A stretch of 36,918 nt of DNA from Bacteroidales bacterium (GTDB taxonomy: Bacteria > Bacteroidota > Bacteroidia > Bacteroidales > F082), in assembly GCA_015491905.1 (NCBI GenBank), contig WGGC01000095.1, positions 1 to 36,918 on the forward strand. Direction: 5' to 3'. Position numbers and translations under genes: made by a program. Of this stretch, positions 1,091-27,876 are shown piece by piece. The notes under the pieces were generated by a model. It saw only the letters and a program-made list of their open reading frames with translations. It was not told where the DNA came from and searched no databases. Numbering within the stretch: the stretch's first letter is position 1; every line of letters starts with the position of its first letter.

Positions 1091-2185
1091 CTAAACATTA
1101 AACCGTATATGCATAATGTCACCATCTTCTACAATATAGTTTTTCCCTTCTACATGAAACTTTCCGGCATCTTTCACAGCCTGTTCAGAGCCTAAAGCAA
1201 TAAAGTCATTATATTTTATCACCTCAGCACGAATAAAACCTCTTTCCAAATCACTGTGTATAACTCCAGCCGCCTGTGGCGCCGTCATACCTTTTCTTAT
1301 TGTCCAGGCACGGTTTTCCTGCTTTCCAATAGTAAAAAACGACTGTAAATCCAAAATGTCATAAGCTGCTCTTACCAGCTTATTCACCCCGGGTTCTTTC
1401 AATCCGGCATCTTCTAAAAATACTTTGCGGTCTTCAGCATCTTCCAACTCCGCAATTTCAGCCTCCAGCTCACCGGCCAATATCAATATCTTACTCTTTT
1501 CTCCAAGTTTCTCTTTTACCATCTCTACATAATCGTTTCCGTCCGTCGCTGAAGCATCATCAACATTGCAAACATAAATTACCGGTTTGGCTGTCAACAG
1601 TAATAAATCCTGAATATAAACCTTATCATCTTCATCAACGGGGGCAGTGGAGGCATTACCAAAATTTTCGAGATGATTTTTATATACTGTAAGTACTTCA
1701 ATGCCTTTTTTCGCATCCTTGCTGCCGGTTTTTGCCAATTTCTGCAACCGTTGTATCTTACGTTCTACCAAATCCAAATCCCGTACCTGAAGCTCAAAAT
1801 CTACAATCTCCAAATCGCGCACCGGGTCAACAGAGCCTTCTATATGAGGTAAATTGTCATTGTCAAAACATCGTAATACGTGTATCAAAGCATCTGTCTG
1901 CTGCACGTCAGCTAAAAATTTATTTCCTACGCCTTCTCCCTGACTTGCGCCTTTTGCCAATCCGGGCAAATCCACAATCTCCACCGTTGCAGGCACCAGC
2001 TTATCGGCTTTCAAAAGCTTGTCAATTTCATATAATCTCGGATCGGGCACTTCCACCATACCTTTGTTCGATTTTGTCGCGCTAAAAGCATAATTAGAAC
2101 TTTCTGCTTTCGTATTCGACATGCAATTAAAAATTGTCGTCTTTCCCGTATTCGTCAACCCTATTATTCCACAGTTTAATGCCAT
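1091..2185 (-). CDS. ychF: Obg-like ATPase YchF (variant P-loop)
   Basis: A 364-residue TRAFAC-class P-loop NTPase of the YchF/OLA1 family, which binds ATP and associates with ribosomes in other bacteria. The G1 motif is at residues 9-18 (GLTNTGKTTI), G3 is DLPGLAKGAS with the family's GEGVGNKFLADV following, and the G4-like segment is YVCNVDDASA. A helical coiled-coil insert follows G3, and the C-terminus carries the TGS domain (AWTIRKGMTAPQAAGVIH, ending GDIMHIRFNV). Most YchF proteins read GLPNVGKST in G1 and FPFCTI in the switch region; here these are GLTNTGKTT and YAFSAT, so the cysteine reported as redox-sensitive in E. coli is Ser. Length and the C-terminal signature are typical. It is preceded by a TACCTTTG promoter box. 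Confidence 0.95.
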   Translation of the reverse strand: MALNCGIIGLTNTGKTTIFNCMSNTKAESSNYAFSATKSNKGMVEVPDPRLYEIDKLLKADKLVPATVEIVDLPGLAKGASQGEGVGNKFLADVQQTDALIHVLRCFDNDNLPHIEGSVDPVRDLEIVDFELQVRDLDLVERKIQRLQKLAKTGSKDAKKGIEVLTVYKNHLENFGNASTAPVDEDDKVYIQDLLLLTAKPVIYVCNVDDASATDGNDYVEMVKEKLGEKSKILILAGELEAEIAELEDAEDRKVFLEDAGLKEPGVNKLVRAAYDILDLQSFFTIGKQENRAWTIRKGMTAPQAAGVIHSDLERGFIRAEVIKYNDFIALGSEQAVKDAGKFHVEGKNYIVEDGDIMHIRFNV

Positions 2186-2283: not shown

Positions 2284-2291
2284 CAAAGGTA
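2284..2291 (-). promoter_or_regulatory. ychF promoter -7 box
   Basis: The minus strand reads TACCTTTG, an exact match to the Bacteroidota -7 consensus TAnnTTTG, 98 bases before the ychF start. No convincing TTTG -33 box is seen at the right distance. Confidence 0.5.
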
Positions 2292-2333: not shown

Positions 2334-2482
2334 TTCAGGGCGGCTGAACCGGGTTGTCCGCTTTAGTCGGCAACAAAAAATAACGGCCGGCTAATGTGTT
2401 TTCGGGGGCTCCCTTGTCGCCCCGCCTCCACAAGCCGCCCTGTTATTTTTTGCCGCCTCGCTGCCGCTGCCACCCCTGCCGC
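2334..2482 (-). ncRNA. Structured GC-rich repeat/RNA element, copy A
   Basis: Read on the minus strand, this begins with CAGGGGTGGCAGCGGCAGC and ends with AGCGGACAACCCGGT followed by a TTCAG-CCGCC-CTGAA hairpin. Between the two blocks, GGCAAAAAATAAC pairs with GTTATTTTTTGTTGCC (3-nt bulge), then GGCGGCT pairs with AGCCGGCC, and an inner hairpin closes GGGGC-GACAAGGGA-GCCCC. The same blocks and layout occur at 14697-14863 and 25590-25745 with different stem sequences. It lies about 165 bases downstream of purM and upstream of ychF, all on the minus strand. It is either a structured RNA or a REP-like dispersed element; it may belong to the known Bacteroidota motif Flavo-1, which I cannot confirm. 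Confidence 0.65.
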
Positions 2483-2646
2483 AAATCTTGCAAATATCAA
2501 TATAAGGTTAAAAAAAAGTTTTTAATGTTAATGGTTATTTTTAAAAGGGAAGTTTCATAAAATCAAGGAAATACAAATTAAAAAACATATAAAAAATACT
2601 GATTTTTTAAATTTTATAATTTATCACCGTATTTTTATTTATATTT

Positions 2647-14584: not shown

Positions 14585-14696
14585 TTCTTTATTCTGAAAG
14601 AGCCAATAAACATAGGTTTTAATATTTTGATTGGTTCTACATTTTTAATAATAATTTTTTCATTTATAATAACATAAACCTGTAAATAGATGCATT

Positions 14697-14863
14697 CCGG
14701 GCAGGGGTGGCAGTGGCAGCCCGGAGACGCAAAGCAGTGGTATGCCCGGTGAGGCAGGGCGACTTTAGGAGCCACTGAAAAACCGTTGGCATACCCTGTT
14801 TTGCGGCGAGGACTATAACGGACAACCCGGTAAGGTTAGCGCAGGCATTGCGCGAAAGAAACC
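14697..14863 (+). ncRNA. Structured GC-rich repeat/RNA element, copy B
   Basis: CAGGGGTGGCAGTGGCAGC and AACGGACAACCCGGT flank a long stem. Positions 14728-14746 pair with 14788-14805: 18 bp including one G-U, with a single bulged T. Inside is an AGGGCGACTTTAGGAGCC hairpin. After the 3' block comes a GCGCA-GGCAT-TGCGC hairpin (14839-14853) inside a GGTT/AACC closing stem. The stem sequence differs from copies A and C, while the flanking blocks are nearly identical. It is about 112 bases downstream of pcrA on the same strand. A run of A rather than T follows, so it is not a terminator for that strand. Confidence 0.7.
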
Positions 14864-14873
14864 GTGCCCGCCT

Positions 14874-14907
14874 AAAAATAAAAAAACCCGAAGATAAACT
14901 CCGGGTC
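14874..14907 (-). terminator. Rho-independent terminator of the acyl-CoA dehydrogenase gene
   Basis: On the minus strand ACCCGGAG, a TTTAT loop and CTTCGGGT form an 8-bp stem (one G-U) followed by a long T run. It starts about 27 bases after the stop codon. Confidence 0.88.
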
Positions 14908-14933
14908 TGTAAAATATTTTGTTGTGATGGAGA

Positions 14934-16076
14934 TTATTTTAAAATCCCTTTTCCGATAACCAAACGTTGAATTTGATTGGTGCCCTCATAAATTTGACAT
15001 AATTTGGCATCACGCATCATTTTTTCAACAAGATAATCGGTAGAATAACCTTCGCCGGCCATAACCTGAACGGCATCGGTGGTAACTTTCATTGCCACGT
15101 CGGAAGCATATAGTTTAGCCATTGCCGATAGCAGGTTTTTATTTTTACGAGTATTATCGTATGACCATGCCGAATACCATGTGACCAGACGGGCGGCTTC
15201 AATTTCAGTTGCCATATCGGCAAGCATAAAGCTAACACCTTGATTTACAACAACCGGCTTACCGAACTGAATACGGTTTTTAGCCCAGTCGCGAGCAGTT
15301 TCGTAGGCAGCACGTGCATTTCCAACACTTAAAGCCGCAACACCGGTACGTGTTCTTTCAAAAGTTTTCATGGCAAGAACAAATCCCTGTCCTTCGCCAC
15401 CGATAAGGTTTTCTTTGGGGACTTCTACATTTTCGAAAATAAATTCAGTTTGAACAGAAGCTCTTTGTCCCATTTTACTCAAATTGGAAACTACTTTAAT
15501 GCCCGGAGATTTTGTAGGAACGACAAATGCACTTAGGCTTCGCGCCCCTTTTTCAGGATTTGTCATAGCAAAAACGGTAACGAATTCGGAGACAGCACCA
15601 TTGGTGATGAAACGTTTATGGCCGTTTAAAATATATTTGTCGCCATGAAGAATTGCCGTTGATTTAATACCGGCAACATCAGAACCGGCATTGGGCTCGG
15701 TAAGAGCATAAGCAGCAACGCCTTTGGTTTCGGTAATTTGACCAAAAAATCTCTTTTTTTGTTCTTCACTGGCACCTAATAAAAGAGGTGTTAACGCTAA
15801 CGTGTTGGCATCCATACAAATACCAATTCCAACGCAACCGGCACCTAATTCTTCGGAAGCTAAAGCACTGTCAAAAATGTTATGGTTGTGACCGCCGTAT
15901 TCCGTCGGAACAGGGCCGTTCATTAAACCTTCGTCGTACGCTTTTTTTACGATATCCCAGGGGAATTCAGCGCTTTCATCATATTTTCTTGCATTGGGAA
16001 TCATTTCCCTTTTGGCAAAATCTCTTACTTTTTCCTGAAGTTCAATTTGCCTGGGTTCTAATGAAAAATCAATCAT
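14934..16076 (-). CDS. Acyl-CoA dehydrogenase (short/medium-chain type)
   Basis: A 380-residue FAD enzyme that introduces the alpha,beta double bond of acyl-CoA in beta-oxidation, passing electrons to electron-transfer flavoprotein. The N-terminal helical domain begins MIDFSLEPRQIELQ. The middle beta domain carries AYALTEPNAGSDVAG and YILNGHKRFITNG, and the C-terminal helical domain RTGVAALSVGNARAAYE and AKLYASDVAMKVTTDAVQVMAGEGYS. The catalytic base is Glu364 in YEGTNQIQR. I start at 16076 rather than at 16148: the longer start adds 24 residues not typical of the family and lies across the predicted -7 box at 16146-16153. Butyryl-CoA dehydrogenase is plausible; chain length cannot be read from sequence. 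It ends in a clear terminator and is monocistronic. Confidence 0.93.
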   Translation of the reverse strand: MIDFSLEPRQIELQEKVRDFAKREMIPNARKYDESAEFPWDIVKKAYDEGLMNGPVPTEYGGHNHNIFDSALASEELGAGCVGIGICMDANTLALTPLLLGASEEQKKRFFGQITETKGVAAYALTEPNAGSDVAGIKSTAILHGDKYILNGHKRFITNGAVSEFVTVFAMTNPEKGARSLSAFVVPTKSPGIKVVSNLSKMGQRASVQTEFIFENVEVPKENLIGGEGQGFVLAMKTFERTRTGVAALSVGNARAAYETARDWAKNRIQFGKPVVVNQGVSFMLADMATEIEAARLVTWYSAWSYDNTRKNKNLLSAMAKLYASDVAMKVTTDAVQVMAGEGYSTDYLVEKMMRDAKLCQIYEGTNQIQRLVIGKGILK

Positions 16077-16145
16077 TGTTAAAAAGTTTATTATTAAATT
16101 AAGAATCAGATATTTAACTTTGTTAATTGGGTTAAATGAGGGTAA

Positions 16146-16153
16146 CAAAGATA
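16146..16153 (-). promoter_or_regulatory. Acyl-CoA dehydrogenase promoter -7 box
   Basis: The minus strand reads TATCTTTG, an exact TAnnTTTG match 69 bases before the chosen ATG. It overlaps the upstream alternative start at 16148, which supports the shorter protein. Confidence 0.5.
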
Positions 16154-25589: not shown

Positions 25590-25745
25590 TTGGGACAGGG
25601 ATGGCAGCGGCAACCCGGAATTACAAAAAGCATTGACGGAAGGGGAGGGCAGGGCGACCTTAGAAGCCCTGCAAAACCCTTTACCGGAAAGTTTTTTGTA
25701 ATGAGGATTATAGCGGACAGCCCGGTGCCGCACTTAAATGCGGCA
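25590..25745 (+). ncRNA. Structured GC-rich repeat/RNA element, copy C
   Basis: CAGGGATGGCAGCGGCAAC and AGCGGACAGCCCGGT flank a stem whose outer part ATTACAAAAA pairs with TTTTTTGTAAT. The inner hairpin GCAGGGC-GACCTTAGAA-GCCCTGC has a perfect 7-bp stem. The 3' block is followed by TGCCGCA-CTTAAA-TGCGGCA (7-bp stem, 25726-25745). Stem sequences differ wholly from copies A and B while pairing is kept. It lies after the aconitase terminator and before the rpsA promoter, so it would need its own transcription or readthrough. Confidence 0.7.
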
Positions 25746-25795
25746 GTTCCCCTTAAAAAATACTAAAAAAACTTTTATAATCAATGAAATAGTTT

Positions 25796-25803
25796 TATTT
25801 TTG
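25796..25803 (+). promoter_or_regulatory. rpsA promoter -7 box
   Basis: TATTTTTG followed by C is an exact TAnnTTTG match, 135 bases before the rpsA ATG. It implies a leader of about 125-130 bases. Confidence 0.5.
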
Positions 25804-25938: not shown

Positions 25939-27876
25939 ATGTCAGAAAACGAAAAAAAAGCTCAGGAAGCCACTGAAAACAAAGAGGTTACCGTTGAGCA
26001 AAACGAAGCGGCACCTGTTGAAAATACTGAAGCAGTAGCTGAAAAAAAAGCCGAAGAGGCACCGGTTGCAGAACCAAAAGAAACCAAAACCAACGAGCCA
26101 GAAGAATTTGATTGGGATGCGCTAAGCAACAAAAAAGACATCTATTCAGCTGACGAAAGAGCTAAATTACAAGACCTTTACGGGAAAACATTAAGTTCAA
26201 TTACAGAGCATGAAGTTATTGAAGGAACTGTTGTTGCATTAAATTCCAGAGAAGTAGTTGTTAACATTGGGTACAAATCCGATGGGGTAATTCCCAGAAA
26301 CGAATTCCGTTATAATCCAGACTTAAAAGTTGGGGACACGGTAGAGATTTATGTTGAAAATCAGGAAGATGCCTCCGGTCAGATGATTTTATCACATAAA
26401 AAAGCACGTTTACTTCGTGCATGGGATCGTATTAATGAAGCTTATGAAAAAGAGGAAGTCATTAATGGTTATGTAAAAAGCCGTACCAAAGGTGGTTTAA
26501 TTGTAGATGTGTTTGGTATAGAAGCTTTCTTACCGGGATCTCAAATTGACGTTAAACCTATTCGTGATTACGATGTGTTTGTGAATAAAACCATGGAATT
26601 TAAAGTGGTTAAAATTAATCAGGAATATAAAAACGTTGTTGTTTCGCATAAAGCGTTGATTGAAGACGAACTGGAAGCACAAAAAGTTGAAATTATTGCT
26701 AAACTGGAAAAAGGACAGGTACTTGAAGGAACTGTTAAAAACATTACTTCCTATGGTGTATTTATTGACCTTGGTGGTGTTGACGGATTAATTCATATTA
26801 CCGACTTGTCATGGGGACGCATTAACCATCCTGAAGAGGTAGTACAGCTTGATGAAAAACTGAAAGTTGTTATCCTCGACTTTGATGAAAATAAAAAACG
26901 AATTGCACTTGGCTTAAAACAATTAACCCCTCATCCATGGGATTCACTTGACGCTAATTTAAAAATTGGTGATAAAGTAAAAGGAAAAGTTGTTGTTATA
27001 GCTGATTACGGTGCATTTATTGAAATTTCTCCCGGAGTGGAAGGGTTAATTCATGTTTCTGAAATGTCCTGGTCGCAGCATTTACGCTCAGCACAGGATT
27101 TCCTTAAAGTAGGTGATGAAGTTGAGGCTGTAATTCTTACATTAGACCGTGAAGAACGTAAAATGTCGTTGGGAATGAAGCAACTGATTCCGGATCCATG
27201 GAAAGACATCCGTGACCGTTACCCTGTAGGATCAAAACATACAGCTGTAGTTCGTAACTTTACCAACTTCGGTATATTTGTAGAAATTGAAGAAGGTGTT
27301 GATGGTTTAATTCACATCAGTGACTTATCATGGTCGAAAAAAATTAAACATCCTGCAGAATTCACTAAAATTGGTGAAAAAATTGATGTAGTAGTACTTG
27401 ATGTTGATGAAGAAAACCGTAGATTAAGTTTGGGACATAAACAATTGGAAGAAAATCCATGGGATGTTTTTGAAACAGTATTTACTTTAGGTTCTATTCA
27501 TGAAGGAACTGTTATAAATGTTATTGACAAAGGTGCAATTGTAGCATTACCTTATGGTGTTGAAGGATTTGTTCCAAATCGCCATATGAAAAAGCAAGAT
27601 GGTACCAATATTAAACTTGATGATAAATTGAATTTTAAAGTTATTGAGTTTTCTAAAGACAATAAAAAAATTGTTCTTTCACATACTGAAACATGGCAGG
27701 AACCTGAAAAGAAAGAGGTAAAACCAAAAGCCAAGGCTTCTGAAAACAGAAGTACAAAACGTTCGGTAAAAAAGGTTAATGATAATATTGAGAAAACCAC
27801 TTTAGGTGATCTTGATGTGTTAGCTAATCTAAAATCAGATTTGGAAAAGAAGGAAAAAGAAGATAAGAAGAAGTAA
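25939..27876 (+). CDS. rpsA: 30S ribosomal protein S1
   Basis: A 645-residue protein with six S1 (OB-fold) domains: about 75-150 (EGTVVALNSREVVVNIG), 165-240 (GYVKSRTKGGLIVDVFG), 255-330 (GTVKNITSYGVFIDLGGVDG), 345-415 (KGKVVVIADYGAFIEISPG), 430-500 (VVRNFTNFGIFVEIEEGVDG) and 515-590 (GTVINVIDKGAIVALPYG). The first two are divergent and bind the ribosome in known S1 proteins; the last four bind mRNA. An acidic Glu/Ala-rich N-terminal extension (about 1-60) and a Lys/Glu-rich C-terminal tail (about 600-645) are Bacteroidota features. The gene starts without a Shine-Dalgarno sequence, as is normal in this phylum. It has its own promoter and terminator. Confidence 0.95.
   Translation: MSENEKKAQEATENKEVTVEQNEAAPVENTEAVAEKKAEEAPVAEPKETKTNEPEEFDWDALSNKKDIYSADERAKLQDLYGKTLSSITEHEVIEGTVVALNSREVVVNIGYKSDGVIPRNEFRYNPDLKVGDTVEIYVENQEDASGQMILSHKKARLLRAWDRINEAYEKEEVINGYVKSRTKGGLIVDVFGIEAFLPGSQIDVKPIRDYDVFVNKTMEFKVVKINQEYKNVVVSHKALIEDELEAQKVEIIAKLEKGQVLEGTVKNITSYGVFIDLGGVDGLIHITDLSWGRINHPEEVVQLDEKLKVVILDFDENKKRIALGLKQLTPHPWDSLDANLKIGDKVKGKVVVIADYGAFIEISPGVEGLIHVSEMSWSQHLRSAQDFLKVGDEVEAVILTLDREERKMSLGMKQLIPDPWKDIRDRYPVGSKHTAVVRNFTNFGIFVEIEEGVDGLIHISDLSWSKKIKHPAEFTKIGEKIDVVVLDVDEENRRLSLGHKQLEENPWDVFETVFTLGSIHEGTVINVIDKGAIVALPYGVEGFVPNRHMKKQDGTNIKLDDKLNFKVIEFSKDNKKIVLSHTETWQEPEKKEVKPKAKASENRSTKRSVKKVNDNIEKTTLGDLDVLANLKSDLEKKEKEDKKK

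Follow-up and report, generated by a model that had tools for sequence, protein, structure and literature searches.

ERIC and Correia-type MITEs are dispersed imperfect palindromes of about 100-150 bp. For the CGTC class of REP elements, the available part of the published description reports an arrangement mostly in head-to-head dimers, with negligible head-to-tail pairs and no dedicated transposase (PMC3733652). Among families classified as RNA, Flavo-1 corresponds to Rfam RF01705, from Weinberg et al. 2010 (PMC2864571). It is placed among the most abundant sRNA families in a review whose function entry for it, in the available portion, is blank (PMC9029176). In the F. psychrophilum transcriptome, as presented in the accessible sections, Flavo-1 matches lie sense or antisense to transcribed regions indiscriminately, and many lie outside any transcribed region (PMC9723704). 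No proposed function for Flavo-1 was found in the portions of these three publications that were available (PMC9723704, PMC9029176, PMC2864571). The two-domain form described below was likewise found in none of the literature searched, available in part and with most subscription journals outside its scope.

Here, the window, that is, the whole 36,918-nt stretch of contig WGGC01000095.1 from the 3.02 Mb genome of Bacteroidales bacterium GCA_015491905.1 (the host genome), was analyzed and found to contain three copies of about 134 nt of one fold, designated A, B, and C. The original prediction had described three copies sharing two blocks, and these were present where it had placed them; the true limits are slightly wider because the closing stem encloses the common blocks. 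The copies and the parts of copy B are as follows, with the ends of whole elements read by eye.

2338-2485, minus strand: whole of copy A, TTTGC-GGC ... GCCGCCC; core 2348-2480 (model R1, 124.4 bits)
14695-14872, plus strand: whole of copy B; core 14700-14831 (model R1, 135.9 bits)
25590-25753, plus strand: whole of copy C; core 25594-25726 (model R1, 128.8 bits)
14703-14724, plus strand: conserved, Flavo-1-like outer 5' arm of copy B
14728-14750, plus strand: 5' side of the long variable stem of copy B, paired with 14782-14805
14755-14777, plus strand: conserved inner hairpin of copy B, GGGCGAC...AGGAGCC
14782-14805, plus strand: 3' side of the long variable stem of copy B
14810-14831, plus strand: conserved, Flavo-1-like outer 3' arm of copy B

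The element is closed by a short terminal stem. Inside this come the conserved outer arms, in which internal loops occur regularly, followed by a long stem and, innermost, a hairpin. The sequence of the long stem is specific to each copy with its pairing retained within each, and the inner hairpin is conserved among copies (GGCGAC ... GGAGCC); both features, anticipated from the sequence, were observed in the folds of all three copies. The closing stem usually takes the form TTTGC-GGC ... GCCGCCC-AAA, and in copy B an additional small hairpin precedes the closing 3' arm. In the window there are exactly three occurrences of the block GGCAGYGGCARC; with up to two mismatches allowed the number rises to nine, compared with a mean of 2.3 in shuffled sequence. 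Relative to dinucleotide shuffles, the folding z-scores of copies A, B, and C were -4.27, -4.28, and -5.01, with 0/200, 0/200, and 1/200 shuffles, respectively, folding as well.

A covariance model was built from seven host-genome copies, and with it 74 full-length matches were obtained in the 3.02 Mb host genome (E <= 1; 150 of 283 candidates scored), the weakest of which had an E-value of 8e-7, in agreement with the expectation that three copies in one window imply many per genome. The core is 131-138 nt long across these matches. At the genus level, the model matched in all 12 genomes searched, with 3 to 74 copies in each; at the class level, in 20 of 119 genomes, the host included (E <= 1e-4, stricter filters); and at the phylum level, in 5 of 148, the host among them and all five of the same class, under a filter so strict that it misses one genome found in the class-wide search. 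Two other genomes of about 2.5 Mb each carry at least 139 and at least 134 matches, with 150 candidates scored per genome, the second being genome G116. A DNA pattern for the inner hairpin was found in at least 118 stretches, and all 80 of the loci listed bear Bacteroidota titles. Among IMG/VR viruses the pattern was found in 12 stretches, among which the model matches a single one, weakly and in part (19.6 bits, E 0.018).

Several observations concern the borders of the family. Host contigs C86, C38, and C179 start or end near or inside the element at a common junction sequence, which probably reflects an assembly junction or a different repeat; since these three contig-end matches share the junction and two of them are 97% identical, perhaps not all are separate copies. 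A GC-rich variant at L299:13881-14015 scores 39.9 bits, and a sequence similar to it, not listed by the model, lies at the syntenic place at about 13300-13460 of L264, and further subfamilies may exist. At L118 and L121 there are short versions of 67-82 nt, in which the same outer arms enclose a plain hairpin instead of the long stem with its inner domain.

In the alignment of 74 distinct host copies, which was fitted to the model, 89.6% of cells are paired. The covariation score is 0.609, compared with 0.184 after shuffling; 0/500 shuffles reach 0.609, slid versions score at most 0.106, and 35 of 39 pairs are changed on both sides, compared with a shuffled mean of 30.1, with 1/500 shuffles reaching 35. 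The fold with compensated stems that the original prediction had considered to be selected is thus well supported. Covariation over the host copies is very strong, and the copies are not fragments of one identical transposon, their median nearest-neighbor identity being 0.80.

The relationships among copies indicate how the family may have grown. The nearest relative lies within the same genome for 69 of 71 host copies and for 27 of 27 copies in genome G001; in the closer pair, G039 and G116, it lies in the other genome for 20 of 70 and 13 of 30 copies. This distribution fits multiplication within lineages, although concerted evolution would look identical. When syntenic sites of G116 and G039 were compared with the elements masked, six element positions were common, in the same orientation, and five were not, in blocks that are mostly 74-80% identical. 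At one of the five (L299 13881) a similar sequence is present in G116, unlisted by the model, and at the unshared positions the flanks are too diverged for a clean empty site to be made out. Furthermore, for seven pairs of matched copies each fold was projected onto its partner in both directions: 511 base pairs were unchanged, 82 had both sides altered with pairing kept, 8 had one side altered, 66 were broken, and 2 were gapped. Among these seven, the pair L267/L294, with an identity of only 61%, may represent a replacement, and the pair L259/L114 was matched by similar flanks rather than by the synteny comparison. With alifold, the same seven pairs yield 44 double changes, 4 single ones, and no broken pair, a count that is biased because the consensus admits only pairs possible in both copies and that the projected count supersedes.

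A second pair count was performed with a structure-blind alignment and pairs chosen by Watson-Crick rules alone. In the host, 1090 of 1182 cells are Watson-Crick, 35 are G-U, and 6 are A-C; in G039 and G116 together, 2036 of 2340 are Watson-Crick, 61 are G-U, and 26 are A-C. The excess of G-U over A-C is moderate evidence that the plus strand is the folding strand, and it fits RNA and single-stranded DNA alike, so that it does not tell the two apart. The other strand tests do not agree with it, being uninformative or opposed. The strand-neutral count of single mismatches, in which conserved loop positions are mixed, gave 37:38 in the host, 23:156 in G039 and G116, and 11:20 in G001, and in the matched copies 12 broken pairs are A-C, compared with 8 one-sided changes that still pair. 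RNA folding energy, which is confounded by composition, favors the plus strand in 74/74 host copies (64/74 after shuffling) and the other strand in 79 of 128 matches in G039 and G116. With DNA folding parameters, the plus strand is favored in 71/74 and 96/128, respectively.

Kinship with Flavo-1 had been suggested at the outset, and it is upheld by loci matched by both models. In the window itself no Rfam match exceeds its gathering threshold, Flavo-1 (RF01705, 42 bits) included. At copy B a Flavo-1 match is absent at E <= 10, and the 15 Rfam matches obtained there at that cutoff are all under gathering scores and mostly fall on the terminator of the neighboring gene. At L119, the same place is matched by Flavo-1 (57.5 bits) and by the two-domain model (53.7 bits), and the full-length two-domain element at L117 scores 36.4 bits with Flavo-1, below the threshold of 42, and 56.4 bits with the two-domain model. 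At L120 there is a weak Flavo-1 match of 27.3 bits at the same place as that of the two-domain model, and at five of the seven loci besides L119 (L113, L115, L116, L118, and L121) Flavo-1 is absent at E <= 0.1. A Flavo-1 element of 43.2 bits exists in the host beside the 74 two-domain matches (L009:1501-1608, equivalent to G000 C200:54415-54522, minus strand), in a search that listed at least one match (150 of 866 candidates scored). The dual-model loci, together with window copies below threshold, imply that the family is a two-domain variant of the Flavo-1 superfamily that fails the formal threshold.

With genes called as simple longest ORFs, the context of each copy was described by two signs, the first for the gene 5' of the element and the second for the gene 3' of it, "=" denoting the same direction as the element and "x" the opposite. 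In the host, 18 copies are ==, 17 xx, 22 x=, and 11 =x, with 6 undetermined; in G039 and G116 (121 of 128 matches), 27 are ==, 31 xx, 23 x=, and 40 =x. Orientation relative to genes is neutral, and the context differs by lineage, divergent sites outnumbering convergent ones in the host (22 > 11) and the reverse holding in G039 and G116 (23 < 40).

TAnnTTTG is the consensus of the Bacteroidetes promoter box. Between the 3' end of the element and the following start codon it occurs 27 times in the host, compared with 4.1 in shuffled sequence, and 18 times in G039 and G116, compared with 0.8. In the interval separating the 5' end from a divergent gene, the box occurs on the opposite strand 17 times versus 4.0 in the host and 12 versus 2.0 in G039 and G116. 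Boxes pointing into the element are at chance level in the host (6 versus 7.3 shuffled, 68 flanks) and about twofold in excess in G039 and G116 (10 versus 4.9, 121 flanks). In the window as a whole the motif is at chance level (62 versus 61.4), as must be considered for the first two of the following features.

2284-2291, minus strand: TAnnTTTG promoter-like box between copy A and the YchF-type GTPase gene (1091-2185, minus strand); motif at chance window-wide
25796-25803, plus strand: TAnnTTTG promoter-like box between copy C and the gene at 25939-27876 (plus strand), which encodes an rpsA-like protein with six S1 domains; motif at chance window-wide
14884-14908, minus strand: hairpin resembling a terminator, with a T run, that belongs to the convergent acyl-CoA dehydrogenase gene (14934-16148, minus strand) and lies just past the 3' end of copy B; 1 such hairpin found versus 0.6 expected by chance

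The 3' end of the element is the one nearer to genes. When cases with another element in between were left out, the median distance from the core to a facing stop codon was 32.5 nt at the 3' side versus 73 nt at the 5' side in G039 and G116, and 75 nt versus 115 nt in the host; without that filter, the values for G039 and G116 are 33 and 133 nt. In the stop-side flanks of G039 and G116, a stop codon is often followed by a T run and then by the GGGCGGC end of the element, and the element therefore seems to finish in an A run abutting the gene. Copies less than 1 kb apart have their 5' ends facing in 15 of 15 pairs (5 in the host, 10 in G039 and G116), with cores at least about 50 nt apart. L118, from another lineage, has a tandem arrangement of two short copies, spaced by 222 nt and not head-to-head. 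Between paired host elements no mobile cargo is evident, the two ORFs there appearing ordinary by eye. For wider pairs the data sets conflict: among the fetched stretches of G039 and G116, 12 of 16 pairs at 1-4 kb face inward around genes, a pattern not seen in the best-scoring G116 copies, where 9 of the pairs within 5 kb face outward and 1 inward. In the host, the pairs spaced 1.1 and 1.6 kb apart face outward.

The reading preferred here, with a probability of roughly 0.5, is that the family is a dispersed intergenic REP/BIME-like structured DNA repeat, a two-domain form of the Flavo-1 superfamily. One strand would fold when single-stranded, possibly during replication, supercoiling, or transfer, and the folded strand would be recognized by a putative protein. 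The element may multiply within lineages while carrying no gene itself; the clustering by genome is observed, and multiplication or concerted evolution could each account for it. In the genomes examined, copies lie outside transcription units, past stop codons and upstream of promoters, in the arrangement relative to genes and to each other described above. After insertion, selection maintains the fold in place, as the compensatory changes observed at syntenic sites indicate. What weakens this reading is that neither a binding or mobilizing protein nor a clean empty site was found for the elements, that the strand tests disagree, that inward boxes are in about twofold excess in G039 and G116, and that the L118 pair is in tandem. 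More tentatively, we suggest that Flavo-1 and its two-domain relatives may together form one class of structured single-strand DNA elements, not small RNAs, that is widespread in Bacteroidota. Such elements would delimit transcription units on their outer side and multiply as head-to-head pairs; afterward they would persist for long times under selection for a 134-nt fold to which a putative protein binds.

A rather unlikely alternative is that the element works in read-through RNA, either as a terminator or insulator at transcription-unit borders or as a 3'-end stabilizer. An insulator would block outside transcription from entering a gene, which agrees with the 3' end facing the gene and lying nearer to facing stops, and the inward pairs around genes in the fetched stretches point the same way, as does the G-U excess. 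Of the genes whose stop faces an element, to which the counts are confined, few carry their own terminator-like hairpin ahead of it: 10/70 at the 3' side and 5/48 at the 5' side in G039 and G116, and 6/27 and 4/24, respectively, in the host. However, no U run was seen by eye after the fold on either strand, the contexts differ between lineages, and the inward pattern is missing in the best-scoring G116 copies. Furthermore, read-through RNA predicts a better fold where the neighboring gene transcribes the folding strand, and this is not the case. The fraction of paired positions in the host is 0.971 in == contexts and 0.974 in xx contexts, and in G039 and G116 it is 0.880 and 0.928; tests of per-copy pairing by upstream gene gave p = 0.59 and 0.60. 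The fold is thus kept equally where neighbors transcribe only the opposite strand, which, jointly with the scarcity of promoters into the element, favors a DNA-level role, though read-through or alternative-sigma transcription may occur.

It is improbable that the family is a multicopy set of independent small RNAs, as both the original prediction and Rfam would have it. The compact fold, the constant size in the host, and the strong covariation are as expected of small RNAs, the spacing between head-to-head cores would be compatible with them, and there is the weak excess of inward boxes in G039 and G116. Against these stand the lack of such an excess in the host, the absence of any conserved sequence upstream of the element beyond its own TTTGC end (72 of 74 host copies), the absence by eye of a terminator after the fold, and the inconsistent transcription of Flavo-1 matches reported in the published account, as far as available (PMC9723704). 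Work as a structured RNA, the functional part of the original prediction, is disfavored by the few inward boxes, by the neutral orientation, and by a fold kept where only the other strand is transcribed. The sequence analysis leans against extending the "sRNA" label of Flavo-1 to the window family.

Mobilization as a REP-like element by a Y1 (RAYT/IS200-type) transposase is very improbable: "atypical structures" do flank genes of Bacteroidetes subclass 2.6 and recur at other places in the genome, according to the available part of the description (PMC6006769), and a Y1 match is found in 15 of 16 genomes searched, but such a partner is largely contradicted by G116, which has its many elements without a Y1 match, and by an element within about 1.5 kb at only 1 of the 13 Y1 loci tested out of 30 fetched, two loci showing other repeats by eye, and the GTAG foot is absent. 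Two relatives, L202 and L213, carry Y1 transposase-like genes with other repeats nearby, GGACGCTCGAACC... and a tandem array of about 81 nt, which are perhaps the atypical REPs of those genes. Moreover, no bias of orientation with replication direction, as in IS200/IS605-like lagging-strand insertion, was present among the 41 matches of G001, whose replichores hold 12+/15- and 6+/5- (hand count, three matches near the origin left out; origin and terminus placed from the GC skew of 20 sampled stretches).

Taken together, the family is large and real, a new variant of Flavo-1 that is more like a REP-type DNA repeat than an RNA gene. A larger Flavo-1-related form is missed by the Rfam threshold in the window; in two genomes of about 2.5 Mb it numbers more than 130 matches apiece. 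Its rules, namely a position outside promoters, a 3' end nearer to genes, head-to-head pairs, and a fold kept regardless of what the neighbors transcribe, make the question of RNA or DNA directly testable.

In comparison with known systems, the window family resembles Flavo-1 (RF01705) in its outer arms, aligned by eye, and in its pairing scheme, closing stem, and dispersal, and the two have in common a Bacteroidota distribution, as judged for the former from the inner-hairpin pattern scan of 80 listed loci. It differs in the longer stem and the conserved inner hairpin domain, the Flavo-1 model comprising 76 positions. Like REP/BIME elements, it is a high-copy intergenic palindrome, and with CGTC REPs it shares both head-to-head pairing and the absence of a dedicated transposase. 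However, REP/BIME elements are palindromes of 20-40 bp, whereas the present element is about 134 nt long, with a two-domain fold and conserved internal loops; the GTAG/CGTC foot tag of REPs is absent, the ends reading TTTGC ... GCCC-AAA instead. ERIC and Correia-type MITEs are alike in size and in the form of a dispersed imperfect palindrome. In contrast to those MITEs, copies of the window family have diverged in sequence with the fold kept, no target duplication or transposase being evident, and in contrast to REP/BIME elements, compensatory change is observed in copies kept between species.
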